DNA from: Streptomyces sp. STR69
Lineage (GTDB): Bacteria > Actinomycetota > Actinomycetes > Streptomycetales > Streptomycetaceae
Direction of reading: 5' to 3'
NCBI RefSeq assembly: GCF_024519455.1
Contig: NZ_JALJRY010000035.1
Location: 4,920-68,919 of the forward strand
DNA length: 64,000 bases
Numbering within the stretch: the first letter of the stretch is position 1; each line of letters starts with the position of its first letter. Below are positions 6,584 to 64,000 of this stretch, piece by piece. Under the pieces are notes generated by a model. The model had not been told where the DNA came from. It did not search any database and saw nothing but the letters and a program-made list of their open reading frames with translations. Position numbers and translations under genes: made by a program.

Positions 6584-8104
6584 ATGCCAGACTCGTTTCG
6601 TTCGGCCCCCTGTCGCGCGCATCAGCCGGAGGCTTCGCCATGTCCGCGTCCACCGTCCCCACCCGTCGAGGGATCCGGGCCCTCGCGCTCCGGCGCCGTG
6701 GTCTGGGTCCTGGCCCTCGGCGGGATCACCGTCTCGCTGATGCAGACGCTGATCATCCCGATCGTGCCCGAACTCCCGAAGCTGCTGAACTCCTCGCCGT
6801 CCGACGCCACTTGGGCGATCACCGCGACCCTGCTCGCCGGTGCCGTCGCCAACCCGGTGGTGGGGCGGCTCGGGGACATGTACGGCAAGCGGCGGATGCT
6901 GCTCCTCAACCTCGTTCTGCTGATAGTGGGTTCGGTGGTCGGCGCGCTCAGCGACTCGCTCGCCCCGATGATCGTCGGGCGAGCGCTCCAGGGCTTCTCG
7001 ATGGCGGTCATCCCGCTCGGCATCAGCATCATGCGCGACGAACTCCCGCCGGAGCGGCTGGGATCGGCGACCGCGCTGATGAGTGCGTCGCTGGGGGTGG
7101 GCGGTGCGCTGGGGCTGCCGACGGCCGCGTTCATCGCCGAAAAGGCGGACTGGCACGTGCTGTTCTGGACGGCGGCGGTGCTCGGTGCCGTCGTGACCGC
7201 GCTCGTCGTGGCGCTCGTACCGGAGTCGGCGGTGCGCAGCGGAGGCCGGTTCGACGTCGTGGGCGGCGTCGGGATGTCGATCGGTCTGGTGTGTCTGCTG
7301 CTCGCCGTCTCCAAGGGGGCGGACTGGGGTTGGGGCAGCGGGACGACGACGGGTCTGTTCGTCGTGGCCGTCGCCGTGCTCCTGGTGTGGGGCTGGTGGG
7401 AGTTGCGCACCGACCGGCCGCTGGTCGATCTGCGGACCAGCGCGCGACGTCAGGTGCTGCTGACCAACCTCGCGTCCGTGGTGTTCGGCTTCGCCATGTT
7501 CGCGATGTCGCTGGCCGTGCCGCAACTGCTCCAGCTGCCCACGCTCACCGGCTACGGCCTCGGCCAGACCGTGCTGGCGGCGGGTCTCACGCTCGGCCCC
7601 TCCGGTCTGGTGATGATGGCCACGGCGCCGCTGTCCGCCCGGATCTCGGCGGCGGCCGGGCCCAAGGTCACCCTCATGCTGGGCGCGTTCGTCGTGGCCG
7701 CCGGTTACGGCCTCGGCGTCGTCATGCTGGCCACGGTCTGGCAGGTCGTCGTGGTGTGCTGTGTGATCTCCGCCGGGGTCGGTTTCGCGTACGGCGCGAT
7801 GCCCGCGCTGATCATGGGGGCGGTGCCGCTGTCCGAGACGGCCGCCGCGAACAGCCTCAACAGCCTGATGCGGTCCATCGGTACGTCCGCCTCCAGCGCC
7901 GTCGCCGGAGTCGTACTGGCGCACATGACGACGACGTTCGGCTCGCTGACGGTCCCCTCCCACAACGCTTTCCGCGTGATCATGGGCATCGGTTCGGCGG
8001 CGGCCCTGGCGGCCCTGGCACTGGCCGCGTTCCTCCCGGGCCGACGACCGGCCGTCGACGCGGGGGTGCCGGCGGCGGCCTCCGCCGGGGCGGGGGTGGG
8101 GTAG
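6584..8104 (+). CDS. MFS multidrug-type exporter (DHA2-like), N-terminus uncertain
   Basis: About 500 residues with the 14-helix layout of DHA2/EmrB-QacA drug:H+ antiporters. The first helix is around AVVWVLALGGITVSLMQTLI; motif A-like GRLGDMYGKRRM follows helix 2; there is a conserved PLGISIMRDELPPER segment. It is paired with a divergent TetR gene, so export of a toxic or signalling compound is likely. The start is a problem: the ATG at 6584 lies only 7 bp past the operator and lacks a ribosome site. A better start (ATG 6640 after GGAGG, giving MSASTVPTRRG) is in another frame and would need a one-base change near 6670 to join this frame. A GTG at 6698 is the last start that keeps helix 1. 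Confidence 0.85.
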   Translation: MPDSFRSAPCRAHQPEASPCPRPPSPPVEGSGPSRSGAVVWVLALGGITVSLMQTLIIPIVPELPKLLNSSPSDATWAITATLLAGAVANPVVGRLGDMYGKRRMLLLNLVLLIVGSVVGALSDSLAPMIVGRALQGFSMAVIPLGISIMRDELPPERLGSATALMSASLGVGGALGLPTAAFIAEKADWHVLFWTAAVLGAVVTALVVALVPESAVRSGGRFDVVGGVGMSIGLVCLLLAVSKGADWGWGSGTTTGLFVVAVAVLLVWGWWELRTDRPLVDLRTSARRQVLLTNLASVVFGFAMFAMSLAVPQLLQLPTLTGYGLGQTVLAAGLTLGPSGLVMMATAPLSARISAAAGPKVTLMLGAFVVAAGYGLGVVMLATVWQVVVVCCVISAGVGFAYGAMPALIMGAVPLSETAAANSLNSLMRSIGTSASSAVAGVVLAHMTTTFGSLTVPSHNAFRVIMGIGSAAALAALALAAFLPGRRPAVDAGVPAAASAGAGVG

Positions 8105-8109
8105 GGGTT

Positions 8110-8155
8110 CCGAAAAAGTGTGTCACTTTCCCCTGAAAGTGACACACTTTTTCGG
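8110..8155. terminator. Bidirectional terminator, perfect 21-bp stem
   Basis: Arms 8110-8130 and 8135-8155 are exact reverse complements around a CCCT loop. The stem base is A-rich on one side and T-rich on the other, so both strands end in a U-rich run. It lies between the convergent MFS and LLM oxidoreductase genes. Confidence 0.9.
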
Positions 8156-8187
8156 AGAGGGTCCCGGGGCCCGGCGCCCTCGCGGTG

Positions 8188-9111
8188 CTACGACAGCTGC
8201 GACTGCACCTGGGACGAGATCAGCTCCAGGTGGTCCAGGTCGTCGAGGTCGAGGATCTGGAGGTAGATGCGCCGGGAGCCGGTCTCGGCGTAGCGGCCGA
8301 TCCTGTCGACGACCTCGGACGGGGAACCCGCCAGGCCGTTGGCCTTGAGTTCGTCGACCTCGCGGCCGATCACTGCGGCGCGGCGGGCGACCTCCTGGTC
8401 GTCCTTGCCGACGCAGACGACGAGGGCGTTGGAGTAGACGAGGTCGTCGGCCTTGCGGCCGGCCGCCTCGGCGGCGGCGCGGACCCGGCCGAACTGCAGC
8501 TCACTGTCCTCGATCGAGGCGAACGGCATGTTGAACTCGTCGGCGTACTGAGCGGCCAGCTTCGGGGTACGGCTCGCGCCGTGGCCGCCGATCAGCACGG
8601 GGATCCTGGTCTGCGCGGGCTTGGGCAGCGCGGGCGAGTCGGTCAGGTCGTAGTACGTGCCGTGGAAGTCGAAGGTGTCTCCGGGCTTGGTCTCCCACAG
8701 CCCGGTGACGATGGCCAGCTGCTCCTCCAGGCGGGCGAACTTCTCCTTCGGGAAGGGGATGCCGTACGCCTTGTGCTCCTGCTCGAACCAGCCCGCGCCC
8801 AGGCCGAGTTCGACCCGGCCGCCAGACATCTGGTCGACCTGCGCGACCTGGATGGCGAGGACGCCGGGGAGGCGGAAGGTGCCGGCCGTCATCAGGGTGC
8901 CGAGGCGTATGCGCCTGGTCTCGCGGGCGAGGGCGGCGAGGGTGAGCCAGGCGTCGGTGGGACCGGGGAGACCGTCGCCGGAACCCATGCTCAGAAAATG
9001 ATCAGAGCGGAAAAAGGCGTCGAAGCCGAGGTCCTCGGTGGCCTTGGCCACGGCGAGCAAGGTGTCGTAGGTGGCCCCCTGCTGGGGCTCGGTGAAGATG
9101 CGAAGATCCAT
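8188..9111 (-). CDS. LLM-class (luciferase-like) F420-dependent oxidoreductase
   Basis: About 307 residues with a TIM-barrel bacterial luciferase-like fold. Typical marks are LRIFTEPQQGATYD at the N-terminus, GFDAFFRSDHFLSM, RIRLGTLMTAGTFRLPGVLA, GRVELGLGAGWFEQEH and PVLIGGHGASRTPKLAAQYA. In actinobacteria these enzymes usually use coenzyme F420, though some use FMN; the substrate is unknown. The ATG at 9111 matches the usual MDLRIF start of relatives; a GTG five codons upstream is the alternative. It converges with the MFS gene across a strong terminator and appears to be a single-gene unit. Confidence 0.88.
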   Translation of the reverse strand: MDLRIFTEPQQGATYDTLLAVAKATEDLGFDAFFRSDHFLSMGSGDGLPGPTDAWLTLAALARETRRIRLGTLMTAGTFRLPGVLAIQVAQVDQMSGGRVELGLGAGWFEQEHKAYGIPFPKEKFARLEEQLAIVTGLWETKPGDTFDFHGTYYDLTDSPALPKPAQTRIPVLIGGHGASRTPKLAAQYADEFNMPFASIEDSELQFGRVRAAAEAAGRKADDLVYSNALVVCVGKDDQEVARRAAVIGREVDELKANGLAGSPSEVVDRIGRYAETGSRRIYLQILDLDDLDHLELISSQVQSQLS

Positions 9112-9355
9112 GCCTCCATCCTGCACGTCGGCCCACCGGTCAACCCCACCGGTCCCTCCGGCCCCACTCTTGCCCGGTCGGGTGAAATTGCGTCAACCGT
9201 GCGCACGGGGACTGCCCGTGCCAGTGACCCGCCCCGGTGATGATCGTTGGCTCGGGCGGAGCCGGACCGCCCGGATTCCCGCACCGGCAAGGCGACGTCG
9301 GGGCGTCACCCGCATCGGCCTCCGCTCTCGGAGGCCACGGGCCGAGGAGGCCGTC

Positions 9356-9532
9356 ATGTCCGAAGAAGCCGTGCCGCAGCAGGGCGGGCCTGCACAACCG
9401 AAGGGGTTGTTGCAGCAGATGGAAGAGCTGATGGCGTCACTGAACGCGGACCTGTCCGCCCTCGACGCGGATCTGCAGTCGGCCGGAAGCACGGGGTCGG
9501 TGTCCGCCGAGGAGGGCGGCGCGACCGCCTGA
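9356..9532 (+). CDS. Small acidic hypothetical protein
   Basis: A 58-residue protein starting MSEEAVPQQG. The middle (GLLQQMEELMASLNADLSAL) is a predicted amphipathic helix, and the acidic/Ser tail is probably disordered. The start is well supported by GAGGAGG at the correct distance from the ATG. The 244 bases upstream hold no gene I can recognise. Similar short LLQQME-type proteins occur in Streptomyces but I know no function. The ribosome site and helix support it as a real gene; product identity is unknown. Confidence 0.65.
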   Translation: MSEEAVPQQGGPAQPKGLLQQMEELMASLNADLSALDADLQSAGSTGSVSAEEGGATA

Positions 9533-9564
9533 CGCTTCTGCGGCGCCGGAGGCGGACGTCTCGG

Positions 9565-10038
9565 TCACCCCGCCTCCCGCTCCGGTACCTCCGCCCGCTC
9601 CCGGTCCGCCAGTCTTCGCAGCATCTCCAGGACCCGGTCCCGCGACTCGTCCGCCGCGTCGATCGCCTCCATGCACTGCCAGTACGTGCCCTCGTCGTCC
9701 GCCGCGCAGGCGATGCCGACCAGGGCGATACCGACCTCGCCGAGCAGGCCGCCGAGGCAGAGGAGCGCGAGGCGCGCGTCGCCCAACTCCGTGAGCTGCG
9801 CCGCCCGTAGGTCCTCGACGGCGAGCACCGGGGTGTCCAGGACTCCGCAGCCCCGGCCCGCCAGCTCCGTCAACCCCAGCGCCTCACCGCGCAGTTCGGG
9901 CGGGCCGAAGACCGCGAGGCGGCTGCCGATCGCCTGGGCGAGGGCCTGCGCCTGCCACACCTCCGTCATGGTCTGCGGCACGTCGCCGCTTCCGGCCAGG
10001 GCGCGCCTGCTCGTCACGATGAGCCGCATCGCGTCCAT
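9565..10038 (-). CDS. Hypothetical protein (resembles DUF6099-type Streptomyces proteins)
   Basis: A 157-residue, mostly helical soluble protein with no signal peptide or membrane segment. It begins MDAMRLIVTSRRALA and has an acidic, Trp-containing region (DDEGTYWQCMEAIDA). I think it belongs to an uncharacterised Streptomyces family (DUF6099), from memory of its N-terminus, not from a search. The stop lies 33 bp from the end of the small convergent acidic-protein gene. No catalytic motif is visible. Confidence 0.65.
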   Translation of the reverse strand: MDAMRLIVTSRRALAGSGDVPQTMTEVWQAQALAQAIGSRLAVFGPPELRGEALGLTELAGRGCGVLDTPVLAVEDLRAAQLTELGDARLALLCLGGLLGEVGIALVGIACAADDEGTYWQCMEAIDAADESRDRVLEMLRRLADRERAEVPEREAG

Positions 10039-51292: not shown

Positions 51293-51312
51293 AAATACCC
51301 CTGGGGGTATTT
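51293..51312. promoter_or_regulatory. CsoR/CstR-type operator 1
   Basis: AAATACCCCTGGGGGTATTT is a perfect 9-2-9 palindrome with core TACCCC-TG-GGGGTA. It overlaps the -35 element of the rhodanese/SQR operon, directly after the kinase stop. Confidence 0.8.
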
Positions 51313-51382: not shown

Positions 51383-51709
51383 GTGGCTCGTGAAGTGACA
51401 CAGGAGACGTTCGCGGCGGCCTGGGGCGACGGTGGGCTCGTGGTCGATGTGCGAGAGGCCGGCGAGTACGCAGCCGGGCACGTACCGGGCGCGCGGCTGA
51501 TGCCGCTGCGCACCGTGCCCGCTCGGTGCGGTGAACTCCCCTCCGACCGGCCGGTATTCGTGATCTGCGCCAGCGGCAACCGCAGCCGCACCGCCGCCGA
51601 CGGGATGAACTCCCGCGGCATCGACGCCTACTCCGTGGCCGGCGGCACCTCCGCCTGGGCCCGCGCCGGACGTCCGGTCGCGGCAGGACCCGCCGAGCAC
51701 GCGGCCTGA
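51383..51709 (+). CDS. Single-domain rhodanese sulfurtransferase
   Basis: A 108-residue rhodanese. LVVDVREAGEYAAGHVPGA is the CH2A-type motif, and the active-site loop is FVICASGNRSRTA with C62 as persulfide carrier. It moves sulfane sulfur between thiols in the cytoplasm. The GTG at 51383 has GAGGAGG upstream. First gene of the reactive-sulfur block, preceded by two CsoR-type operators, and followed 62 bp later by an SQR-like flavoprotein. The gap between carries a short tandem repeat. Confidence 0.93.
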   Translation: MAREVTQETFAAAWGDGGLVVDVREAGEYAAGHVPGARLMPLRTVPARCGELPSDRPVFVICASGNRSRTAADGMNSRGIDAYSVAGGTSAWARAGRPVAAGPAEHAA

Positions 51710-51771: not shown

Positions 51772-53001
51772 TTGGCCGCCACACCCTCCCCCACCGACGC
51801 CCCGATCTCCGGCCGCCACCGCGTCGCCGTCATCGGCGGCGGCAGCGCCGGTATCAGCGCCGCCGCCCGCCTGCGCCGCGCCGGCATCAGCGACATCACT
51901 CTGATCGAACCGTCAGACACGCACTGGTACCAGCCCCTGTGGACCCTGGTCGGCGGCGGCCAGGCACCGCTGCGGGCCACCCGCCGCCCCGAAGCGTCCG
52001 TGATACCCGACGGCGTGCGCTGGATCCGCCGGCGCGCCCAGGCCGTCGACCCCGACGCCCGCACGGTGACCCTCTCCGGCGGCGACGAACTCACCTACGA
52101 GCACCTGGTGTTGGCGCCCGGTCTCCAGCTCGACTGGGGCGGCGTGCCGGGCCTGGCCGAGGCGATCGGCCACGACCGGGTGAGCAGCAACTACGCACCC
52201 GAGTACGCCCCGCGCACCTGGGAGCTGATCAAGAACATGCGCTCGGGCACCGCGGTCTTCACTCACCCTGCCACGCCCCTGAAGTGCGGCGGCGCCCCCC
52301 AGAAGATTGCCTACCTGGCCGCGGACTACTGGCGCAGGCAGAAGGTTCTCGGCGACATCCGCATCATCCTCGTCATCCCGGACCCGGCGATGTTCAAGGT
52401 GCCCGCCTGGTCACAGGTCCTGGAGAAGGTGGCCGCCCGGTACGGGATCGAGGTGCGGCTGCGCTCCGAGATGACCGCAGTCGACGGCGACGCCCGCGAG
52501 GTCACCGTCACCGACCACGCGAACGGCACGAAGGAGACCATCGGCTACGACCTCCTGCACGCCGTGCCGCCGCAGAGCGCCCCCGACTGGATCAAGACGG
52601 GCCCGCTCGCCGACCCGGCAAGCCCCCAGGGGTTCGTCACCGCGGACAAGCACACGCTCCAACACCCCTCCTACGACAATGTCTTCGCGCTCGGTGACGT
52701 GGCGAACCTGCCCACCTCGAAGACCGGTGCCGCGGTGCGCAAGCAGGCCCCGGTCGTGGCCGGCAATCTGCTCGACGTCATGAACGGCCGGGCTCCGTCG
52801 CACCGGTACGACGGCTACACGTCCTGCCCGCTGGTGACCGCCCGGGACCGGATGCTGCTCGCCGAGTTCGACTACGACCTCAACCCCACGCCCTCGTTCC
52901 CGCTGCTCGACCCGTTCAAGGAGCGGCGCACGATGTGGGTGTTCAAGCGGTACGGCCTGCCGCCGGTGTACTGGCACGGCATGCTCACCGGCCGCCTCTG
53001 A
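51772..53001 (+). CDS. sqr: Sulfide:quinone oxidoreductase-like flavoprotein
   Basis: A 409-residue FAD-dependent disulfide oxidoreductase. HRVAVIGGGSAGISAAARLRRAG is the FAD ADP-binding fold, and VFALGDVANLPTSKTGAAVRKQAPVVAGNL the second FAD motif. Conserved cysteines C172 (LKCGGAPQK) and C352 (YTSCPLV) fit the redox pair of type II/III SQRs. It oxidises sulfide to sulfane sulfur and passes electrons to membrane quinone, with the product going to rhodanese or dioxygenase partners. The TTG at 51772 has AAGGAG in front. A terminator follows. Confidence 0.9.
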   Translation: MAATPSPTDAPISGRHRVAVIGGGSAGISAAARLRRAGISDITLIEPSDTHWYQPLWTLVGGGQAPLRATRRPEASVIPDGVRWIRRRAQAVDPDARTVTLSGGDELTYEHLVLAPGLQLDWGGVPGLAEAIGHDRVSSNYAPEYAPRTWELIKNMRSGTAVFTHPATPLKCGGAPQKIAYLAADYWRRQKVLGDIRIILVIPDPAMFKVPAWSQVLEKVAARYGIEVRLRSEMTAVDGDAREVTVTDHANGTKETIGYDLLHAVPPQSAPDWIKTGPLADPASPQGFVTADKHTLQHPSYDNVFALGDVANLPTSKTGAAVRKQAPVVAGNLLDVMNGRAPSHRYDGYTSCPLVTARDRMLLAEFDYDLNPTPSFPLLDPFKERRTMWVFKRYGLPPVYWHGMLTGRL

Positions 53002-53037: not shown

Positions 53038-53080
53038 ACCATCCCCGCTCTCCGACAAGGGCGGACCAGACCCTTAGATA

Positions 53081-53127: not shown

Positions 53128-54513
53128 ATGTTCTTCGCCCAGTACTACCTCGACTGCCTCTCCCAGGCGTCCTACCTGATCGCCGACGAGTCCACCGGCA
53201 AGGCCGTCGTCGTCGACCCGCGCCGCGACGTCTCCGAATACCTCACGGACGCCGCCGAGCACGGCTTCACCATCGAAGCCGTCATCAACACCCACTTCCA
53301 CGCCGACTTCCTCGCCGGCCACCTCGAACTCGCCGACCGTACCGGCGCCTGGATCGGCTACGGGCAGCGCGCCGAGGCCGAGTACCCCATCCGCAAACTG
53401 ACCGACGGCGACCGCATCAGCCTCGGCGACGTCCACCTGCAGATCCTCGAAACCCCCGGCCACACCCCGGAGTCGATCAGCGTCCTGGTCTACGAGCACG
53501 CCGGCGACACCGTCCCCTACGGCGTCCTCACCGGCGACGCGCTGTTCATCGGCGACGTGGGCCGCCCCGACCTGCTCGCCTCGATCGGCGTGACCGCCGA
53601 CGAACTCGGCAAGATGCTCTACGACACCATCCAGCACAAACTGATGGCCCTCCCGGACGCGGTGCGCGTCTTCCCCGCGCACGGCGCCGGATCCGCCTGC
53701 GGCAAGAACCTCTCCACCCAGCGCCAGTCCACCATCGGCGAACAGCGCGCCACCAACTACGCCTGCCGGCCCATGAGCGAGGGGAAGTTCGTCTCGCTGG
53801 TGACCGAGGGCCAGCCGTCCGCGCCCGCGTACTTCGTCTACGACGCCATCCTCAACCGCAAGGAGCACGGCCTGTTCGACGCGGCCACGGCGCCCCGGCC
53901 GCTGTCCGTCGAGGAGTTCATGCAGCGGCGCGCGGCGGGGGCGGTCGTCCTCGACGCCCGCTCGCCGCAGGACTTCGCGCCCGGGTATCTGCGCGGCTCG
54001 GTCAACGTGCCCGCGGACGGCCGCTTCGCCGAGCAGGCCGGCATGGTCGTCGCCCCCGAGCAGGACGTCGTCGTCATCGCGCCCCAGGACCGCGAGGAGG
54101 AGGTCGTCACCCGGCTCGCCCGGATCGGCTTCGACAAGGTCGGCGGCTACCTGCGCGAACCCGAGGGCGCCTTCCCCGCCCTGGCCGACGAGATGGAACA
54201 GGCCAGCCGCCTGACCGCCGACGAGTTGCGTCGGCTGCTGGACGGCGAGGAACCGCCGCTGGTGCTGGACGTGCGCAACACCGCCGAGCGCGAAGAGGGC
54301 TTCATCGAAGGCTCCCTGCACATCCCGCTGGCCGAACTCGCCCGCCGTATCGACGAGATCCCGGCCGACCGGCCCCTGGTCGTCCACTGCGCGGGCGGCC
54401 ACCGGTCCTCCATCGCCGCCAGCCTGCTGCGCCATGAGGACCGCACCGACGTCTCCGACCTGCTCGGCGGCTACGGCGCCTGGCTCGCCCTGCCCGCATC
54501 GGCCGACGTCTGA
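53128..54513 (+). CDS. Persulfide dioxygenase-rhodanese fusion (CstB-like)
   Basis: A 461-residue protein. The N-terminal ~250 residues are an ETHE1-like metallo-beta-lactamase: THFHADFLAGH (H56, H58, D60, H65), TPGHTPES and TGDALFIGDVGRPD. Two rhodanese domains follow. The first (~257-350) has VIAPQDREEE where the Cys loop should be and is inactive; the second (~365-455) keeps VHCAGGHRSS with C421. As in CstB, it should oxidise persulfide to sulfite, then to thiosulfate. GGAGG precedes the ATG at 53128. Confidence 0.92.
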   Translation: MFFAQYYLDCLSQASYLIADESTGKAVVVDPRRDVSEYLTDAAEHGFTIEAVINTHFHADFLAGHLELADRTGAWIGYGQRAEAEYPIRKLTDGDRISLGDVHLQILETPGHTPESISVLVYEHAGDTVPYGVLTGDALFIGDVGRPDLLASIGVTADELGKMLYDTIQHKLMALPDAVRVFPAHGAGSACGKNLSTQRQSTIGEQRATNYACRPMSEGKFVSLVTEGQPSAPAYFVYDAILNRKEHGLFDAATAPRPLSVEEFMQRRAAGAVVLDARSPQDFAPGYLRGSVNVPADGRFAEQAGMVVAPEQDVVVIAPQDREEEVVTRLARIGFDKVGGYLREPEGAFPALADEMEQASRLTADELRRLLDGEEPPLVLDVRNTAEREEGFIEGSLHIPLAELARRIDEIPADRPLVVHCAGGHRSSIAASLLRHEDRTDVSDLLGGYGAWLALPASADV

Positions 54514-54596: not shown

Positions 54597-55178
54597 ATGA
54601 CCACCAGTGCCGACAAACCCCGACTCGTTCCCGCGACCCTGCGCGACCTGACCCAGGAGGGCGAAGGCCCGCGCCTGCTGGACGTGCGTACGCCCGGCGA
54701 GTTCCGCACCGCCCACATCCCCGGCTCCTACAACGTGCCCCTCGACACCCTGCGCGAGCACCGCGGCGAACTGCTGCACCACCTCGACGAGGACGTCATA
54801 CTCATCTGCCGCTCCGGCGCCCGCGCCACCCAGGCCGAACAGGCCCTGGCCGAAGCCGGGCTGCCCAACCTGCGCGTCCTCGACGGCGGCGTCATGGCGT
54901 GGGAAACCGCCGGAGGCCCGCTCACCCGCGGCCCCGAACGCTGGGACCTGGAACGCCAGGTGCGCCTGGTCGCCGGATCCATCGTGGTGGTCACCGGCAT
55001 CGCGGGCGTGTTCCTGCCCGGACTGCATCTGATCGGCACGGCCGTCGGCGCCGGACTGACCGTCGCCGCACTCACCAACACCTGCGCCCTTGGCATGCTG
55101 CTGGCGAAGCTGCCCTACAACCGCGGCCCGCGCACCGACCTCGACACGGTCGTCGCCGCCCTGCGGGGCCCGTCGTGA
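54597..55178 (+). CDS. Membrane-anchored rhodanese (YgaP-like)
   Basis: A 193-residue protein. Residues ~10-112 are a rhodanese with LLDVRTPGEFRTAHIPGS and active-site loop ILICRSGARATQ (C71). The C-terminal ~60 residues form two helices (LVAGSIVVVTGIAGVFLPGL, LIGTAVGAGLTVAALTNTCALGMLLA), the DUF2892-like hairpin of YgaP. It may hand sulfur or sulfite-precursor to the membrane exporter whose start overlaps its stop. AAGGAA precedes the ATG at 54597. Confidence 0.9.
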   Translation: MTTSADKPRLVPATLRDLTQEGEGPRLLDVRTPGEFRTAHIPGSYNVPLDTLREHRGELLHHLDEDVILICRSGARATQAEQALAEAGLPNLRVLDGGVMAWETAGGPLTRGPERWDLERQVRLVAGSIVVVTGIAGVFLPGLHLIGTAVGAGLTVAALTNTCALGMLLAKLPYNRGPRTDLDTVVAALRGPS

Positions 55179-56140
55179 TCGCATTGGTCGTCGCCGCGTC
55201 CCTGCTGATCGGGGCCGGCCTGGGCGTCCTGGGCGGGGGCGGGTCCATCCTGACCGTGCCGGTCCTCGTCTACCTGGCCGGGATGGAGACCAAGGAGGCC
55301 ATCGCCACCTCCCTGTTCGTCGTCGGCGTGACCAGCGCCGCCGGAGTCGTCCCGCATGCCCGTGCCGGGCGGGTGCGGTGGCGCACCGGGCTGCTGTTCG
55401 GCGTGGCCGGCATGAGCGGCGCGTACGCGGGCGGCCGACTGGCGGCGTTCGTCCCCGGCACCGTGCTGCTCCTCCTGTTCGCCCTCATGATGATCGCCAC
55501 CGCCGTCGTCATGATCCGCGGCCGTCGGAAGCCGCAGCAGATCCGCCACGAACTTCCCATGGGACCCGTCCTGTTGAACGGCGTCGCCGTCGGCCTCGTC
55601 ACCGGGCTCGTCGGTGCCGGCGGCGGTTTCCTCATCGTCCCCGCGCTGGCCCTGTTCGGCGGGTTGCCCATGTCCGTCGCCGCCGCCACGTCCCTGCAGG
55701 TGATCGCCCTCCAGTCGTTCGCGGGGTTCGCCGGTCATCTCTCCGGTGTGCACATCGACTGGGCGCTCGCCGCCGTCGTCACGTCGACCGCCGTCGTCGG
55801 CAGCCTGGTCGGCGGCCGTCTCGCCGGGCGCATCCCGCAGGACGCGCTGCGCAGGGCCTTTGGCTGGTTCGTCGCCCTCATGGGCGCCTTCGTGCTGACC
55901 CAGCAGATCCCCTCAGGCGTGCGCCACACCCTCGTGACGAATCCATGGATCTGGTCCACGACAGCCGCGACCGCCGGGGCCCTGTTCAGCTGGTACGTGC
56001 TACGCCGCTCCGGACGGGCCCGGGACCGGGACGACGACGCGCCAGAGCCTGCAGGCGGGGACGATGGTCAGCCGCACCCACATCCCTCACACCAGGACAC
56101 GACGTCCAGCCACGCCACCCGGTCACCGCTCGACACGTAG
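55175..56140 (+). CDS. TauE/SafE-family sulfite exporter
   Basis: A 321-residue membrane protein with about eight helices. GAGLGVLGGGGSILTVPVLVYLAGM and GLVTGLVGAGGGFLIVPALALFGG are the two repeated half-motifs of TauE/SafE, with ATSLFVVGVTSAAG and AATSLQVIALQSFAG. It should move sulfite or a related anion out. The GTG at 55175 overlaps the rhodanese stop. The C-terminal tail is His/Asp-rich and disordered. Downstream is the CsoR-type regulator. Confidence 0.9.
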   Translation: MIALVVAASLLIGAGLGVLGGGGSILTVPVLVYLAGMETKEAIATSLFVVGVTSAAGVVPHARAGRVRWRTGLLFGVAGMSGAYAGGRLAAFVPGTVLLLLFALMMIATAVVMIRGRRKPQQIRHELPMGPVLLNGVAVGLVTGLVGAGGGFLIVPALALFGGLPMSVAAATSLQVIALQSFAGFAGHLSGVHIDWALAAVVTSTAVVGSLVGGRLAGRIPQDALRRAFGWFVALMGAFVLTQQIPSGVRHTLVTNPWIWSTTAATAGALFSWYVLRRSGRARDRDDDAPEPAGGDDGQPHPHPSHQDTTSSHATRSPLDT

Positions 56141-56473
<333 letters not shown>

Positions 56474-57627: not shown

Positions 57628-58305
57628 TCAGGACGGTGTGCCGGGCTTCGTCGCCAGGTACCAGTCGGTGAGCTTGACGCTGTCGTCGGCCAGCCGGGCC
57701 TCCAGTTCCGCCTGGGTGCGCGGGGCGCCCAGGACGACGTCCTCGCCGGGGTGCCAGTTGGCGGGGCAGGAGACGCCGTCGCGGTCGGAGGTCTGCAGGG
57801 CGTCGACGAGCCGCAGGATCTCGGGGATCATGCGTCCGGCGTTCATCGGGTAGTACAGCACCGCCCGTATGGTCTGCTCGGGGTCGATGACGAAGACGGC
57901 GCGTACGGCGGCGGTGCCGGAGGTGTTCGGGTGGAGCATGCCGTAGGCGTGCGAGACGCGCATGTCCAGGTCGGCGATGATCGGGAACGAGACGCGCACG
58001 CCCAGCTTCTCCTCGATCGCGCGGGTCCAGGCGAGGTGGCTGTGGACGGAGTCCACGGAGTTGCCGAGCAGGGCGGTGTTGCGGGCGGCGAACTCGTCGG
58101 CGAGTTCGGTGAAGGCGACGAACTCGGTGGTGCACACCGGGGTGAAGTCGGCCGGGTGGCTGAAGAGCACCAGCCACTGGCCGTAGTAGTCGGTCAGTCG
58201 GACGGGACCGTGGGTGGACTCGGCTTCGAAGTCCGGCGCCCTGTCGCCGATGAGAGGCAGACGGGTGTACTCGGCGGGCTCGGCCAGTTGGTCGGAGACG
58301 GTCAT
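57628..58305 (-). CDS. 1-Cys peroxiredoxin (Prx6-type)
   Basis: A 225-residue peroxiredoxin. The peroxidatic Cys is C58 in HPADFTPVCTTE, with a downstream Arg in GVRVSFPIIAD region and the Prx6-type C-terminal domain (PMNAGRMIPEILRLVDALQ, then VSCPANWHPGE with a second Cys near 188). It reduces hydroperoxides and may handle persulfides. The start follows GGAGGATCC. A CsoR-type operator lies 35 bp upstream, tying it to the sulfur regulon. Confidence 0.93.
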   Translation of the reverse strand: MTVSDQLAEPAEYTRLPLIGDRAPDFEAESTHGPVRLTDYYGQWLVLFSHPADFTPVCTTEFVAFTELADEFAARNTALLGNSVDSVHSHLAWTRAIEEKLGVRVSFPIIADLDMRVSHAYGMLHPNTSGTAAVRAVFVIDPEQTIRAVLYYPMNAGRMIPEILRLVDALQTSDRDGVSCPANWHPGEDVVLGAPRTQAELEARLADDSVKLTDWYLATKPGTPS

Positions 58306-58339
58306 CGGAGGATCCCTCCCGGACGATCACGGATTCGGA

Positions 58340-58353: not shown

Positions 58354-58516
58354 TTTTCACGACCCCGGTCGGCGGAGGACCACACGGCCTGACATTCGCC
58401 CCCGTCGGCCCTTGCGTCTGCTGTCCGACGAGACCCTCCCCGCATCGCACGGGAACACCCGGGCGGGGGCGGGGGCGGGGGCGGAACAATTCGGCCTCGC
58501 ACCGCGCTGTTCCTTA

Positions 58517-58530
58517 TACCCCTCCGGGTA
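58517..58530. promoter_or_regulatory. CsoR/CstR-type operator 5
   Basis: TACCCC-TC-CGGGTA, one mismatch from the core, 60 bp before the small protein gene at 58591. Confidence 0.7.
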
Positions 58531-58590
58531 TGCAAGTCGTAGTCGGTGCCCGGGGACCGCGACCGGACCCGGCGAAGGAGCGTGAGCCCG

Positions 58591-58884
58591 ATGGAGACAG
58601 CAGGACATGACGGACCTGCCAGGACAACCGAGGACACCTGTCTTGTGACGACCTGTGGGCGCAGGATCGCCGTGCGGTGTCTGCGGCTTGCTCCCGCGCA
58701 CCGACCCATCACCCGGGTCGCCCTGGACGTGGGCCAGGACCAGGGCGGCGAGCCGGGAGTGTGGGCGGCGCTGACCGCCGACGAGGCCCGTGACCTGGCT
58801 CGCCTGCTCCTCCTGCACGCCGGCCTGGCCGAGCGCGGCACCGACACCCTCGGGTCGCCACCGAAGAGCGGCCCTTCCTTCTGA
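58591..58884 (+). CDS. Small hypothetical protein in the sulfur regulon
   Basis: A 97-residue protein with three Cys in its first third (DTCLV, TCGRR, VRCLR) and a helical second half (TADEARDLARLLLLHAGLAE). No domain is recognised. GAAGGAG lies 10 nt before ATG 58591. A CsoR-type operator precedes it, so it probably belongs to the sulfur regulon. It converges on the PIG-L gene with an 18-bp gap. Confidence 0.65.
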   Translation: METAGHDGPARTTEDTCLVTTCGRRIAVRCLRLAPAHRPITRVALDVGQDQGGEPGVWAALTADEARDLARLLLLHAGLAERGTDTLGSPPKSGPSF

Positions 58885-58901: not shown

Positions 58902-59579
58902 TCACTCCAGGATGCGCAGGTATTCGCGGTCGCCGAGGAGTTCCAGACGGCGCCAGAGCACCGGGTTGTCCGACGACTGGCTTGCATGACAGGCGATGGC
59001 GCGGCGCTGCCGCTGCCGTGACACCGGTTCGACGACTCGGCACTCGGCCGGGCCGCGGCCCGTGAAGGACGTGCCGAACTCGGCGTTCAACCGGTCCGCC
59101 ACCTCCTGGGGCAGCGTCCAGCCCAGCATCGCAACACCGGCCCGGCGGGCGGCCGACAGCGCGGCCTCGGTGGCTCGTCGGTGGTCCCGGTGTCCTGTGA
59201 CACCTTCCGTGTCGAACACGAGCAGGTGGCTGGGGCGCTCCTCGCCGATGAGGCCGGTGACGTGGGCGGTGAGCCGGTCCAACGGGATGTCGCTCAGACC
59301 GCCATCCGGATGTCCGGCCAGTTCCACGCGCTGGACGCCCAGTTCCCGTGCGGCGCAGGCGAACTCGCCCGCGCGGACGGTGTGCAGGTCGCCGGGCCTG
59401 CCGTGCAGGGTGGACGCCTCACCGTGGGTGAAGCAGAGGACCGTCGTGGGCACGCCGCCCTCGGACAGCAGGGCCAGCAGTGCGCCCAGCCCGAACGACT
59501 CGTCGTCGGGATGGGCGACCACCGCCAGCACACGCCGCACTCCGTCCGGCAGACCGCGCCCCGAGCCAGTACCGGTCAT
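58902..59579 (-). CDS. PIG-L-family deacetylase
   Basis: A 225-residue LmbE/PIG-L zinc amidase. VLAVVAHPDDESFGLGALLA is the metal/catalytic AHPDDE motif; TEGVTGHRDHRRATEAAL gives the third ligand. Family members deacetylate GlcNAc-type substrates, including the mycothiol precursor (MshB) and mycothiol conjugates (Mca). It is the last gene of an SQR-TusE-DsrE operon, 1 bp after the DsrE stop, which suggests work on a low-molecular-weight thiol or its conjugate (inference). Smaller than MshB, so not the housekeeping enzyme. Confidence 0.88.
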   Translation of the reverse strand: MTGTGSGRGLPDGVRRVLAVVAHPDDESFGLGALLALLSEGGVPTTVLCFTHGEASTLHGRPGDLHTVRAGEFACAARELGVQRVELAGHPDGGLSDIPLDRLTAHVTGLIGEERPSHLLVFDTEGVTGHRDHRRATEAALSAARRAGVAMLGWTLPQEVADRLNAEFGTSFTGRGPAECRVVEPVSRQRQRRAIACHASQSSDNPVLWRRLELLGDREYLRILE

Positions 59580-59580
59580 C

Positions 59581-60054
59581 TCAGGTGTAGATGATCTGGC
59601 CGCCGGCCGCGTGCTCGTAGAACTCGCCGACCGTGATGATGTCCTGGACCTGCTCGACGAGGTCGTCCTTGTCGAGTTCGAAGAGGTCGACCGACGCCTT
59701 GCAGGCGTAGATGCCGGCTCCGGTGTCGGCGATCATCTCGATGAACTCGGGGATCGGCGGGATGTCGAGCTTGTCCATCTTGCGTTCCATGTAGCGGGTC
59801 ACGAGGTCGGGGACGCCCGGCATGCCGCCCAGCAGGGTGGGCAGGTGCAGACCGGGGTTGCCGACGGTGGCCAGCTTGATGTGCTCCCAGCGCTTCTTCG
59901 TGATGGCGTCGAGGCCGAAGAAGGTGAAGAACAGGTCGGCCTCGATGCCTTCGGCGCGGGCGCCGTTGGCCATGATCAGGGCCGGGTAGATCCCTTCCAG
60001 GGACCCCTTGGAGATAATGATCGAGACCTTCTCGATCGTTGCGGTGTCGGCCAT
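59581..60054 (-). CDS. DsrE/DsrF-family sulfur carrier (DsrE2-like)
   Basis: A 157-residue DsrE-fold protein. EKVSIIISKGSLEGIYPALIMANGA is the N-terminal strand-helix, FFTFFGLDAI the second, and the likely sulfur-carrying Cys is C118 in GIYACKASVDLFEL. DsrE2-like proteins take sulfane sulfur from SQR or rhodanese and pass it on to TusA/DsrC-type carriers. GAGGAG precedes ATG 60054. It follows the TusE-like gene by 64 bp in the same operon. Confidence 0.9.
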   Translation of the reverse strand: MADTATIEKVSIIISKGSLEGIYPALIMANGARAEGIEADLFFTFFGLDAITKKRWEHIKLATVGNPGLHLPTLLGGMPGVPDLVTRYMERKMDKLDIPPIPEFIEMIADTGAGIYACKASVDLFELDKDDLVEQVQDIITVGEFYEHAAGGQIIYT

Positions 60055-60118
60055 GACGGCATGCTCCTCGATGACAGAGACGGTGGCGGAGGTGATGGCG
60101 GAGGCGGTGACCGGGAGG

Positions 60119-60436
60119 TCAGATGCAGCCGCGCGGCTTGGGGATTCCGGCGATCTTCGCTGCGGTCTTGGCGGGCCCCTTGGGGAAGAGCTGGTACAGC
60201 TCCTTGACGCTCACGCCGGATGTCTTGCCGAGGACGCGGACCGTGGGGCCGGTGCCCTTGGCTGCGTATTCGGCGCGCATGAAGTGGATGACCGTCCAGT
60301 GCCGGTCGGTCAGCGCCTCGATGCCCGCCTCGTGGGCGATCTGCTCGGCCATGGGCTCGGTCCAGCGGTCGGGATCGGTGAAGAATCCCTCGTCGTCGAC
60401 GGGGACGGCTGTGGAGCCGTAGGTGGCGGTGGGCAT
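60119..60436 (-). CDS. TusE/DsrC-family sulfur carrier with one C-terminal cysteine
   Basis: A 105-residue protein of the DsrC/TusE/DsvC family: VDDEGFFTDPDRWTEPMAEQIAHEAGIEALTDRHW, then a C-terminal arm ending PKPRGCI. The penultimate Cys (C104) that carries persulfide is present. The second cysteine of true DsrC, 11 residues earlier, is replaced by A93, so it is TusE-like, not a DsrAB substrate. AAGGAG precedes ATG 60436. No DsrAB or TusBCD genes are nearby. Confidence 0.92.
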   Translation of the reverse strand: MPTATYGSTAVPVDDEGFFTDPDRWTEPMAEQIAHEAGIEALTDRHWTVIHFMRAEYAAKGTGPTVRVLGKTSGVSVKELYQLFPKGPAKTAAKIAGIPKPRGCI

Positions 60437-60479
60437 GGCGGCGTTCTCCTTCACTCAGACGGTTCAGGCGTTCAGGCGT

Positions 60480-61721
60480 TCAGGCGTGGACGTGGTGCTT
60501 GCCGTGCTCGGGCATCGCCGAGTCGATGCCGGGCAGTTCCCGGCCGGGCAGGAGGCTGTGCCAGTACAGCCACTCGAAGGCGAGCTTGCCGAGGTGGTTG
60601 GCGTGCGACTCCTTCAGCAATGGCAGGCCGAGAGCGGCCGGGAAGTGGCCGGGCAGCGGCTCGGTGTCGTAGTTGAAGTCGATCAGCAGGGCCTTGTGGA
60701 AGCCGGTCTCGACGAAGCAGTTGGTGTGCCCGTCGAAGGTCGCGTCCAGCGGCTGTCCGGCCAGGAAGCGGCCGATGTTGTGCGTCAGCGTCTCCCCCGC
60801 GAAGTGCGCCACCGAACCGGCCTTGGACGCCGGCAGCCCGGCCGCGTCGCCGATCGCGAACACCTCAGGATGCTGGGGGTGTTGGAGGGTGCGCTGGTCG
60901 ACAGGGATGAAGCCCAGTTCGTCGCCGAGGCCCGGGGAGCGTTCGACGTATTCGGCGCCGCCGTGCAGTGGCACGACCACCGCCAGGTCGAAGGGCACCT
61001 CGCGTTCGTCGTACGACACCAGCCTGCCACCGGTGCCGTCGACCTCGCCAAGCGTGAACTCGGTGACCAGCTCGATGCCCTTGGCAGCCAGCAGCCCGCC
61101 CAGCGCCTCGGCGGCGACAGGCTTGGTGAAGGCGCCGTCCAGCGGGGTGGCGTACGTCAGCTGGACCTTGTCGCGGATGCCGCGCCGCTGGAAGTACCAG
61201 TCGGCGAGAAAGGCGAACTCCAGTGGTGCGACCGGGCACTTGATGGGCAGGTCGGCCACGTTCACCACGACGCGCCCGCCCTCGAAGTGCTCCAGGGCGT
61301 GGTGCAGGCCGACGGCGCCGGGCAGGTCGTAGAAGGTGAAGACCTTCTCGCCCCAGCCGGGACCGGTCAGCCCCTCGGTCTCCTCCGGGAGGAGGGTGGC
61401 GCCGGTGGCGACGACGAGGACGTCGTAGGTCATCCGTATGCCGCCGCTGAGGTGCACCGTCCGCGCGTCCAGGTCGACCCGCTCGATGCGTGCCTGTTTG
61501 TAGTCGACGTCTGCGTGCAGCTGCTGCGGGCGGGAGCGGACGAGGTGGTGCGGCTGGGCCGCCCCGAAGGGGACGAACAGCAGGCCGGGCTGGTAGACGT
61601 GGTCGTCGTCCTGGTCGACCACGGTGATCCGGCATTCGTTCTCGTCGTACATGCGGCGCAGCCGGTTGGCCGTCAGCGTGCCTCCGGTGCCGCCTCCGAG
61701 TATCACGATGTGTGTGCCCAT
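60480..61721 (-). CDS. Second SQR-like FAD/NAD(P) oxidoreductase
   Basis: A 413-residue flavoprotein. THIVILGGGTGGTLTANRLRR is the FAD fold, EVFAIGDAAGLPASKAGSVAHF the second. Cys C162 (LPIKCPVAP) and C335 (HTNCFVETG) match SQR-type cysteines. The His-rich C-terminus (EHGKHHVHA) is unusual. Unlike the first SQR it heads an operon with TusE, DsrE and PIG-L, so its product sulfur is probably passed to protein carriers. ATG 61721 matches the family start; an upstream extension is unlikely to be coding. A CsoR-type site lies 57 bp upstream. Confidence 0.9.
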   Translation of the reverse strand: MGTHIVILGGGTGGTLTANRLRRMYDENECRITVVDQDDDHVYQPGLLFVPFGAAQPHHLVRSRPQQLHADVDYKQARIERVDLDARTVHLSGGIRMTYDVLVVATGATLLPEETEGLTGPGWGEKVFTFYDLPGAVGLHHALEHFEGGRVVVNVADLPIKCPVAPLEFAFLADWYFQRRGIRDKVQLTYATPLDGAFTKPVAAEALGGLLAAKGIELVTEFTLGEVDGTGGRLVSYDEREVPFDLAVVVPLHGGAEYVERSPGLGDELGFIPVDQRTLQHPQHPEVFAIGDAAGLPASKAGSVAHFAGETLTHNIGRFLAGQPLDATFDGHTNCFVETGFHKALLIDFNYDTEPLPGHFPAALGLPLLKESHANHLGKLAFEWLYWHSLLPGRELPGIDSAMPEHGKHHVHA

Positions 61722-61778
61722 GCCCCCACTGTCGTGCGGGAGAAGGGACCCGGGCATGGGCCACAGGTCCCCATCCGG

Positions 61779-61792
61779 TACCCACCCGGGTA
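61779..61792. promoter_or_regulatory. CsoR/CstR-type operator 6
   Basis: TACCCA-CC-CGGGTA, a 5-bp-arm version of the palindrome, upstream of the leftward SQR operon. Confidence 0.6.
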
Positions 61793-61855
61793 TACCTTCG
61801 CTCCGCCCCCGCGGGCCCGGCACGCCGCCCGCCCTCCATGAACTCCCTGAAAAAA

Positions 61856-61869
61856 TACCTACCAGGGTA
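61856..61869. promoter_or_regulatory. CsoR/CstR-type operator 7 (degenerate)
   Basis: TACCTA-CC-AGGGTA, the weakest of the seven, in the divergent gap upstream of the OsmC operon. The remaining ~275 bases between the two operons hold no gene. Confidence 0.5.
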
Positions 61870-61996
61870 TGCCACCACGGTTGTCGACGCGAGGGCCGAA
61901 CGGCCCCTGGCACACCCCGTCGGCCTCTCGATCAGCAGCACGGTTCGCGGTCGACTGGAACTGGCAGCAGTCGACCCCCACGAGAGAGGCCCGGCC

Positions 61997-62449
61997 ATGA
62001 CCGGCACCGCACCGCAGACCCTCCCCACGAACCAGCCGCAGGACGCGGACGTACACCACTTCGAGGTGACCCACGCCGAAGGCGACATCTACACCGTGGA
62101 CATCCGCGGCCACCGCTTGCATGTCGACCAGCCCGTCGAGGCGGGCGGCACCGACATCGCACCCACCCCCACCGAATTGTTCGCCGCCTCCCTGGCCACC
62201 TGCGTCGCCTTCTACGCGGGCCGTTTCCTGCACCGCCACGGCCTGGACCAGGCCGGACTGCGCGTCCATACGGAATTCACCATGGCCACCGACCGGCCCG
62301 CCCGCGTGGCCTCCCTGCACGTCACGATCGTCCCGCCGGCCGGACTGTCCGAGCAGCGCCGCGCGGCCCTGCTCGCCGTCGCCTCGCGCTGCACGGTCCA
62401 CAACACACTGCAGCAGCCGCCCGAGATCGGCATCGGGCTGGCACTATGA
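61997..62449 (+). CDS. OsmC-family protein
   Basis: A 150-residue OsmC/Ohr-fold protein. GGTDIAPTPTELFAASLATCVAFYAGRFL carries the first catalytic Cys, and AVASRCTVHNTLQQPPEIGIGL the second. Two conserved Cys give thiol-dependent peroxidase activity on organic hydroperoxides, and OsmC-like proteins also occur in persulfide detoxification loci. GAGAGG lies before ATG 61997. The stop overlaps the class V aminotransferase start (ATGA). Confidence 0.9.
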   Translation: MTGTAPQTLPTNQPQDADVHHFEVTHAEGDIYTVDIRGHRLHVDQPVEAGGTDIAPTPTELFAASLATCVAFYAGRFLHRHGLDQAGLRVHTEFTMATDRPARVASLHVTIVPPAGLSEQRRAALLAVASRCTVHNTLQQPPEIGIGLAL

Positions 62450-64000
62450 GCACGCATCTGGCACCGCCCACCTCCCCCCTTCTGGACCGCATCCGCCGCG
62501 GCCTCATCGGCGACGGCGAGGTGCTGGAGGGCCCTTACGGCCCCCGACGCCTCGTCTACGCCGACTACACCGCCTCCGGCCGTTCCCTGGACTTCGTCGA
62601 GGACTTCGTGCGCGAGCAGGTGCTGCCCCTGTACGGCAACACCCACACGGAGAGTTCCAGCACCGGACTGCAGACGACCCGGCTGCGGGAGGACGCCCGG
62701 CGGATCATCCGCGACGCGGTCGGCGGCAGCGAGGACGACCTCGTGATCTTCTGCGGCTCGGGAGCGACCGCGGCGGTCAACAAGCTGGTGGGCATCCTGG
62801 AACTGCGCCGGACCGACCCGCTGCCGCAGGCCATGCGCCCGGTCGTGTTCGTCGGCCCGTACGAGCACCACTCGAACGAACTGCCCTGGCGGGAGTCGGT
62901 CGCCGACGTCGTGGTCATCGGCGAGGACGCGGACGGTCACATCGATCTCGGCGATCTGGAGGCGCAGTTGGCCCGGTACGCCGACCGGCCGCTGCGCATC
63001 GGCAGCTTCTCCGCCGCCTCCAACGTCACCGGCATCCTCACCGACACCGACCGCATCGCCCGCCTGCTGCACGCGCACGGCGCCCTGTCCTTCTGGGACT
63101 ACGCGGCTGCCGCCCCCTACGTCTCCATCCGGGTCGCCGAGAGCGCCCCCGGCGCGGGCGACCACAAGGACGCGGTCTTCCTGTCCCCGCACAAGTTCGT
63201 CGGCGGCCCGCAGACCCCCGGCGTCCTCGTCGTCCGCCGCGAGCTGGTCCGCAACCCGGTGCCCACCGCACCGGGCGGCGGCACAGTCTCCTTCGTCGGT
63301 CCGCTCGGCCATCGCTATCTGGACGACCCGGTCGCCCGGGAGGAGGGAGGCACTCCGGCGATCGTGGAGTCGATCCGCGCCGGGCTGGTCTTCGCCCTCA
63401 AGCAGGCCGTCGGCACCGACACCATCCAGGCCGCAGAGGAGCGGCACTGGAAATGTGCGCTCGCCCGGTGGGACCGCGACCCCGGCATCGAAATCCTCGG
63501 CAGCCACCACGCCCGCCGCCTGTCCATCATCTCGTTCCGCATCCGGCACGGCAGCCACGCCTACCTGCACCACAACTACGTCGTCGCCCTCCTCAACGAC
63601 GTCTTCGGCATCCAGGCCCGCGGCGGCTGCTCCTGCGCCGGTCCCTACGGCCACCGCCTCCTCGCCATCGACGCCGCCACCTCCCACGCCCTGCTCGACG
63701 AGGTCGTCCACGGCTGCGACGGCATCAAACCCGGCTGGATCCGCATCAACTTCAACTACTTCATCAGCGACACCGTGCGCGACTACCTCATCGACGCGGT
63801 CGAGCTGATCGCCGCGTACGGCCACCGGCTCCTTCCCGACTACCGCTTCGACCCGCACACCGGGCAGTGGCGCCACCGCACCGGCCCGTCCTCTCCCCCG
63901 CTGCGGCTGACCGACGTGCGCTTCGCAGCCGACAGACGGATCACCGCGCCGACCGTCCGCCACCACCGGCTGGGCGAGGAAGCGCTGTCGGGCCAGCTCG
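62446..64000 (+). CDS. Class V aminotransferase (cysteine-desulfurase-like), 3' end outside window
   Basis: At least 518 residues without a stop before the edge. It is a fold-type I PLP enzyme: RRLVYADYTASGRSLDF start, FCGSGATAAVNKLVG, GPYEHHSNELPWRES, FWDYAAAAPYVSI, PLP lysine K250 in LSPHKFVGGPQTPG, and a C-terminal RGGCSCAGPYGHRLL (C395, C397) near the position of the desulfurase Cys loop. It may release sulfur from cysteine or act on a related amino acid. It is coupled to the OsmC gene. The long opposite-strand frame here is a shadow. Confidence 0.88.
   Translation, partial: MSTHLAPPTSPLLDRIRRGLIGDGEVLEGPYGPRRLVYADYTASGRSLDFVEDFVREQVLPLYGNTHTESSSTGLQTTRLREDARRIIRDAVGGSEDDLVIFCGSGATAAVNKLVGILELRRTDPLPQAMRPVVFVGPYEHHSNELPWRESVADVVVIGEDADGHIDLGDLEAQLARYADRPLRIGSFSAASNVTGILTDTDRIARLLHAHGALSFWDYAAAAPYVSIRVAESAPGAGDHKDAVFLSPHKFVGGPQTPGVLVVRRELVRNPVPTAPGGGTVSFVGPLGHRYLDDPVAREEGGTPAIVESIRAGLVFALKQAVGTDTIQAAEERHWKCALARWDRDPGIEILGSHHARRLSIISFRIRHGSHAYLHHNYVVALLNDVFGIQARGGCSCAGPYGHRLLAIDAATSHALLDEVVHGCDGIKPGWIRINFNYFISDTVRDYLIDAVELIAAYGHRLLPDYRFDPHTGQWRHRTGPSSPPLRLTDVRFAADRRITAPTVRHHRLGEEALSGQL

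Follow-up and report, generated by a model that had tools for sequence, protein, structure and literature searches.

Sulfide:quinone oxidoreductase (SQR) is the main entry point of sulfide detoxification from bacteria to mitochondria, and its known acceptors are small molecules, e.g., glutathione and sulfite. Operons of SQR, TusA, and DsrE are published for Methylacidiphilum fumariolicum (PMC10205796) and for Metallosphaera (PMC4175335): In M. fumariolicum SolV, the operon of a type III SQR, TusA, and DsrE2 (MFUM_v2_0219-21) is about 1.7-fold up with H2S, and in M. cuprina, the SQR Mcup_1723 is accompanied by the TusA Mcup_1722 and the DsrE Mcup_1724, the DsrE4 group being defined by its position downstream of SQR. 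A related operon is found at positions 58902-61721 of a stretch of 64,000 nucleotides (the window) from Streptomyces sp. STR69, where a DsrC/TusE-family protein stands between SQR and DsrE and a PIG-L-family gene follows. Because this place is taken by TusA elsewhere, the operon is read as a DsrC version of the known SQR-TusA-DsrE module, widespread and apparently undescribed. With a probability of roughly 0.6, it would combine sulfide oxidation with a sulfur relay leading from SQR via DsrE and DsrC to cytosolic users.

With the operon of M. fumariolicum SolV, the locus shares the combination of SQR, a small carrier, and DsrE, whereas the carrier is TusA there and DsrC here. Similarity to DsrE4 of M. 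cuprina, compared by gene position only, consists in a DsrE downstream of SQR, as present in the window and in 75 of the best 80 named loci treated below; the partner in M. cuprina, however, is TusA. In Allochromatium vinosum, transfer from DsrE-Cys78 to DsrC-Cys111 has been demonstrated (PMC3397948), and a DsrE cysteine and a penultimate DsrC cysteine are likewise available as a transfer pair in the Streptomyces locus. Unlike in A. vinosum, the second DsrC cysteine is absent, the linked enzyme is SQR, and dsrA exceeds the cut-off in none of the 43 genomes with the operon (matches below the cut-off occur in 24; the comparison genome G167 was positive in this search, and dsrB was not searched). 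The TusE/TusBCD relay of E. coli also pairs a one-cysteine carrier of the DsrC family with a protein of the DsrE fold, but the operon studied here is linked to SQR, its DsrC belongs to a separate clade, and TusD was found in none of the 14 genomes with the operon that were searched for it. An operon of SQR, DsrC, and DsrE does not appear in the titles and beginnings of abstracts found in the open-access literature (subscription journals and preprints lie outside this scope), nor in the excerpted parts of papers on Acidicaldus, Sulfobacillus, cable bacteria, and Acidithiobacillus.

Gene content and conservation of the operon

All four genes are confirmed on the minus strand within 58902-61721. 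The gene at 60480-61721 (413 amino acids) codes for a predicted SQR (SQR3) and exceeds the cut-off of the type III model NF049943 (568.8 bits, cut-off 525); the name of this model refers to a selenoprotein subtype, and the window protein has cysteine at the respective site. It is followed by the DsrC/TusE-family carrier (60119-60436, 105 amino acids; PF04358 117.5 bits, TIGR03342 97 bits with a cut-off of 53.5), the start of which is taken to be the ATG at 60436, preceded by AAGGAGA, in preference to the GTG at 60454. A gene of the DUF1641 type is absent between the two in the window. Next come the DsrE-family protein (59581-60054, 157 amino acids, PF13686 103.4 bits) with Cys118 as its single cysteine, and the PIG-L-family hydrolase (58902-59579, 225 amino acids, PF02585 96.6 bits), whose start codon lies one base past the DsrE stop (TGA-G-ATG). 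In the following, SQR, the one-cysteine DsrC, and DsrE are together called the triad; L numbers denote loci and G numbers genomes, G000 being the own genome. The latter has a size of 10.7 Mb and contains two triad copies, i.e., that of the window and a second complete one (L017), which is accompanied by OsmC and an operator and lacks PIG-L.

The presumed reactive cysteines are conserved throughout the triad. In SQR, Cys162 is kept in 109 of 111 rows (two gaps) and Cys335 in 110 of 111 (one gap), and both align with cysteines of SQOR (8dhk; profile alignment). In L078, an SQR gene (8729-9997) that is divergent from a two-cysteine DsrC (8049-8378) has an in-frame TGA precisely at the position of Cys335, probably read as selenocysteine, which fits a redox site; within the phylum sample, SQRs with an internal TGA were met in seven genomes, all from one family. 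Concerning DsrE, Cys118 is kept in 106 of 110 rows, and it is aligned with a cysteine of 2qs7, 3pnx, and 3mc3. The AlphaFold model of this protein has a mean predicted local distance difference test score of 91 and finds its top PDB match in 2qs7; the DsrE2 equivalog NF047629 is missed (89.5 bits, cut-off 210).

The triad is a conserved operon, conserved far beyond chance. In the genus sample, DsrC is present in 8 of 121 genomes, and the triad stands on one strand at all nine DsrC places (window, L010-L017). In the phylum sample, DsrC matches occur in 50 of 396 genomes at 62 places, three of which were already in hand; 33 of the remaining 59 were taken with wide flanks, lower scores being chosen, and the DsrC C-termini were read at all places save G374 and G162 (weak, under the cut-off). 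The triad on one strand is found in all 26 further actinobacterial loci with a short one-cysteine DsrC (L048-L073), SQR being a fragment in L053 and containing a stop codon in L048. Conversely, SQR of at least 570 bits occurs in 27 of the 396 genomes, all of which possess a one-cysteine DsrC, and 27 of the 29 genomes with such a DsrC have this SQR; the exceptions are G460 (SQR fragment) and G234 (two one-cysteine copies and one two-cysteine copy). Since the next tier of SQR begins at 492 bits, the groups are well separated.

Among named genomes, the best 80 of at least 584 SQR loci were taken, such that distant SQRs are under-sampled. DsrC and DsrE follow SQR on the same strand in 75 of these 80, and in two of the other five (L105, L147) the sequence ends less than 340 bp from SQR. 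The titles of these triad loci, mostly metagenome-assembled, bear ten labels at about phylum level: Actinomycetota, Dormiibacterota, Planctomycetota, Acidobacteriota, Gemmatimonadetes, Myxococcales/Deltaproteobacteria, Ideonella, Verrucomicrobia, Bacteroidota, and Aminicenantes. The trees of SQR, DsrC, and DsrE correlate across 103 loci with r between 0.75 and 0.86, the maximum under permutation being 0.23. The SQR of Streptomyces sp. MNU76 shares 88% identity with the window protein.

The DsrC carrier and its exchange with TusA

Cys104 is the sole cysteine of the window DsrC and its penultimate residue. In all 75 named triad loci, cysteine occupies position -2, whereas position -13, which corresponds to Cys100 of A. 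vinosum, is Ala (69), Ser (4), Glu (1), or Thr (1) and never Cys; the same pattern is found across 35 triad rows of the genus and phylum loci. Organisms without DsrAB are described as having, almost without exception, Ala, Ser, or Thr in place of the second DsrC cysteine (PMC3397948). In a midpoint-rooted tree, the triad DsrCs form a clade of their own with 111 rows on one side, whereas the 26 rows of the other side comprise E. coli TusE, two-cysteine DsrCs, the one-cysteine DsrC of L076, and cysteine-free relatives (0.656 and 0.995 being the support values on either side of the root). The traits of dissimilatory DsrC, i.e., a second cysteine and a dsrA above the cut-off in the genome, are both lacking. 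The single penultimate cysteine is shared with TusE, but a TusD partner and grouping with TusE in the tree are not found, and the TusE equivalog NF008562 is missed (77 bits, cut-off 191).

These results bear on a biosynthetic explanation, according to which DsrC would act as a TusE and pass sulfur derived from SQR or from a desulfurase to tRNA thiolation (MnmA) or to a cofactor. E. coli TusE (tail ATKIAGLPKPVKCI) has the same one-cysteine pattern, and its direct interaction with MnmA is described (PMC3397948). However, the triad is accessory, as seen from the few Streptomyces genomes with DsrC; moreover, the lack of TusD in the 14 triad genomes searched, the separate clade, the co-occurrence with SQR, and operators of the sulfane-sulfur type render this explanation unlikely.

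Some DsrC-family proteins depart from the common form. Those of L075, L077, and L209-L216 have a different C-terminal end without cysteine, and their genomes carry a two-cysteine DsrC or fall into the same group as such genomes. In L076 and L208 (G234), a one-cysteine DsrC stands beside a two-cysteine DsrC in a genome without triad SQR. A single open frame matching both DUF1641-type and DsrC profiles is found beside SQR in seven of the best 80 named loci (L152, L153, L161, L162, L165, L170, and L174, from genomes labelled Myxococcales, Myxococcaceae, or Deltaproteobacteria; confirmed by Pfam in three of three tested), and several unnamed loci encode a similar protein by a gene of its own, placed between SQR and DsrC.

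Exchange of the carrier is observed in Verrucomicrobiota, where a related SQR was found in 9 of 194 genomes. Four small genomes have DsrE, TusA, and SQR on one strand with TusA in the middle (Pfam on one of them), whereas DsrC and DsrE accompany SQR in four of the other five, neither being found in the short flank of the fifth (L182). The SQR of the TusA type is the more distant one (309-314 bits versus 588-670 bits in the other five). From their genome size and gene set, the four TusA-type genomes are probably relatives of Methylacidiphilum. As a side observation, a protein in L090 (331-1713) begins like a class V aminotransferase or cysteine desulfurase and shows a TusA score further on, and may be a fusion.

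A preliminary description of the window had proposed a four-gene operon in which SQR feeds TusE- and DsrE-type carriers on a new route without DsrAB or TusBCD. The genes are real and correctly placed, the tie of SQR to the two carriers is borne out by the same-strand triad far beyond chance, and the operon is conserved, as was to be checked by co-occurrence (75 of the best 80 named loci; one-cysteine DsrC in all 27 SQR genomes). The lack of the DsrAB and TusBCD systems agrees with the searches for dsrA (0/43, dsrB not being searched) and TusD (0/14). To speak of a new route was too strong, SQR-TusA-DsrE being in print (PMC10205796, PMC4175335); what differs is DsrC as the carrier.

Operators, the sulfane-sulfur island, and PIG-L

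In Streptomyces coelicolor, the published ScCsoR circuit comprises SCO0618, sco0620, sco0621, and tauE, with the operator ATACCn6GGTAT (PMC7533328). This motif occurs four times in the window, versus 0.00 expected from 100 shuffles, and a relaxed form, written after the window sites had been seen, seven times versus 0.05 expected. A relaxed match to such a CsoR/CstR-type operator (61777-61794) lies 71 bp before the SQR start, and a second operator (61854-61871, containing the exact motif as a strict site at 61855) follows between SQR and the divergent OsmC-family gene (61994-62449, plus strand, PF02566), such that both are common to the two genes. The position is conserved: an operator is situated 71-76 bp upstream of the SQR start in all 12 Streptomyces triad loci. 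Of all 107 loci whose upstream sequence covers 300 bp or more, 19 have one within 400 bp, the background being 0.025 per 400 bp. OsmC adjoins the triad in six of the eight sister loci L010-L017. From the motif present, the operon is a putative member of a CsoR/CstR sulfane-sulfur regulon, in which sulfane sulfur would regulate its expression.

The operators continue into an island of genes on the other side of the triad. The 1-Cys-type peroxiredoxin (57628-58305, minus strand; PRK13189 273.9 bits, cut-off 211; 1-cysPrx_C) stands after the operator at 58338, and a methyltransferase gene lies between it and a CsoR-family regulator with a single cysteine (56186-56473, plus strand, GTG start as listed, PF02583 63.9 bits). 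The remaining genes are on the plus strand: a rhodanese (51383-51709, PF00581 56.5 bits as G000:C59:56323-56583) after the operators at 51294 and 51350; a second SQR-like flavoprotein of a different branch (51772-53001, NF049943 222.7 bits, under the cut-off of 525); a protein of the persulfide dioxygenase (PDO)-rhodanese type (53128-54513, Lactamase_B and Rhodanese) after the operator at 53079; a rhodanese with a YgaP-like membrane domain (54597-55178); and a TauE/SafE-type exporter (55175-56140), named by resemblance and not by family search. The operator motif and the nearby PDO-rhodanese, rhodanese, TauE, and CsoR are thus as in the ScCsoR circuit, whereas the published four-gene set, in the excerpt of the paper, is without SQR, DsrC, and DsrE.

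In the window CsoR (56186-56473), Arg replaces the first sensing cysteine of ScCsoR-type proteins. A one-cysteine CsoR is likewise found at L096:9767-10051, and the closest sister, in L013, keeps both cysteines. Immediately beyond the right end of the window lies a second CsoR (L092:6193-6486, G000:C59), which has both cysteines and is confirmed by family search; its neighbours, named by resemblance, are another rhodanese, a protein of the TauE type, and a PDO-rhodanese, a gene set that resembles the published circuit of S. coelicolor. Within 58515-58884 (plus strand), a strict operator of the CsoR type also precedes a small open reading frame ending at 58884, and OsmC is followed by a cysteine-desulfurase-like protein (about 62500-64000, plus strand, running past the window) and then a thioredoxin-like protein, both named by resemblance. 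L054 has CsoR, rhodanese, PDO-rhodanese, SQR, DsrC, DsrE, and OsmC in succession on a single strand, an arrangement that supports a sulfane-sulfur end user.

PIG-L is far less regularly associated. Of the 12 Streptomyces triad loci, only that of the window and L013 (72% identity) have a full-length copy; L014, L015, and L096 give partial matches, and none was found in the other seven. As a core partner PIG-L is thus ruled out, 10 of 12 loci being without a full-length copy. Outside Streptomyces, 5 of 77 named loci of the triad collection (L099, L109, L119, L135, L138) have a PIG-L of 53-57% identity. Of the 396 genomes of the phylum sample, 10 contain a member of the subfamily, and five of these 10 have the triad (p = 2.4e-4). 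The two are adjacent only in the window; in the four other genomes with both, they are 668 kb apart (G181) or on other contigs (G333, G448, G491). In six of the nine other genomes, PIG-L has a rhodanese domain no more than 3 kb away, versus 0.16 expected, the limit of 3 kb having been set after the loci were seen; in four of the nine, the distance is at most 1.1 kb.

Concerning its function, PIG-L was initially described as typical of mycothiol metabolism. It shares the PIG-L family with MshB and Mca, but is far under both curated cut-offs (40.1 bits versus 224.35 and 38.7 bits versus 277.15, respectively), and true Mca and MshB are encoded elsewhere in the own genome; identity with either enzyme is ruled out by these scores and by the separate genes. 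With its absence or partial state in most Streptomyces loci, this characterization is not supported. The inclusion of PIG-L with the other genes fails as far as a core part is concerned, whereas a weaker link through co-occurrence of the subfamily with the triad (5/10) and with rhodaneses (6/9) persists. An explanation that takes all four genes as one mycothiol-persulfide pathway, PIG-L hydrolysing mycothiol persulfide or a mycothiol conjugate, would fit the one-base spacing after DsrE, the five named loci outside Streptomyces, and the nearby rhodaneses. It is very unlikely, however, in view of the few full-length copies, the lack of PIG-L beside L017 as the other triad copy of this genome, the four genomes in which PIG-L and triad are apart, and the scores under the MshB and Mca cut-offs. 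PIG-L is read as an optional accessory hydrolase, the substrate of which may be the persulfide of a low-molecular-weight thiol, or its conjugate. The best solved relative of PIG-L is LnmX of the leinamycin cluster (5bmo, 55 bits); the word LnmX is absent from the leinamycin-family hydropersulfide paper, and nothing is concluded from this match.

A putative sulfur relay and its meaning

We infer the following course of events. As a membrane flavoenzyme, SQR would oxidise H2S, pass the electrons to quinone, and build up sulfane sulfur on Cys162/Cys335, which would then be loaded on a protein relay. Release as polysulfide or transfer to a small thiol would not be its sole outlet. The sulfane sulfur would move first to DsrE-Cys118 and then to DsrC-Cys104 on a flexible C-terminal arm, an order that is borrowed from A. 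vinosum; direct transfer from SQR to DsrC may also occur. DsrC would fill the place that TusA occupies in the known operons, between SQR and DsrE, and would deliver to cytosolic users, for which the rhodaneses and persulfide dioxygenases in the island are the likeliest candidates in this genome.

Several observations weigh against this relay. Cys118 of DsrE is replaced by Tyr in Streptomyces L010 (8336-8806; 94% identical to the window DsrE) and by Ser in one other row, the two further departures being gaps. The nearest solved relative of the window DsrE is DsrE2B, the Metallosphaera orthologue of which was inert with every sulfur compound tried (PMC4175335), and in A. vinosum neither thiosulfate nor glutathione persulfide serves DsrEFH and DsrC as a sulfur donor (PMC3397948). 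The gene order DsrE-TusA-SQR of the Verrucomicrobiota is the reverse in terms of transcription; in L124, L144, and L160, SQR is without DsrC and DsrE though the sequence continues; G234, with its two one-cysteine DsrC copies, has no SQR of the triad group; and the CsoR of the window is without one of the two cysteines needed by ScCsoR of S. coelicolor. Finally, a PDO-like gene is near the triad in only 3 of the 77 named loci outside Streptomyces (L103, L111, L123) and in 2 of the 26 unnamed loci (L054, L057). Because of these low numbers, the acceptor may differ outside Streptomyces or be encoded elsewhere.

The scarcity of PDO-like genes and the incomplete conservation of Cys118 would also suit a sensor or safety device, in which DsrE and DsrC would be reversible persulfide sinks protecting or tuning SQR, with no onward carrier step. 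The one-cysteine arm of DsrC and its exchange with TusA, however, fit a carrier, and both TusA and DsrC are known as carriers, such that this explanation appears rather improbable. The relay from SQR via DsrE and DsrC to cytosolic users is retained as the preferred reading. A search of plasmids with DsrE yielded 128 records, every one below 60% identity; the inspected haloarchaeal record contains TusA-DsrE, SQR and DsrC not being listed in its 8.4 kb (incomplete gene table).

In a wider and more tentative sense, for which the odds are slightly below even, the triad DsrCs might constitute a third DsrC branch, one-cysteine and dedicated to SQR, serving a protein-bound sulfane-sulfur relay in many bacteria without DsrAB or TusBCD, in which DsrC and TusA are interchangeable and an actinobacterial PIG-L from sulfane-sulfur clusters is an optional fourth member. 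The acceptors of SQR would then include a protein besides small thiols. The exchange between TusA and DsrC makes the question of the relay accessible in vitro with three proteins. With a conserved protein acceptor of SQR, if true, reactive sulfur would have a controlled, low-leak route. Finding dsrC in an environmental genome would then, on its own, signal neither sulfite reduction nor DsrAB-dependent oxidation of sulfur, whereas a one-cysteine dsrC beside SQR would be a marker of sulfide handling.

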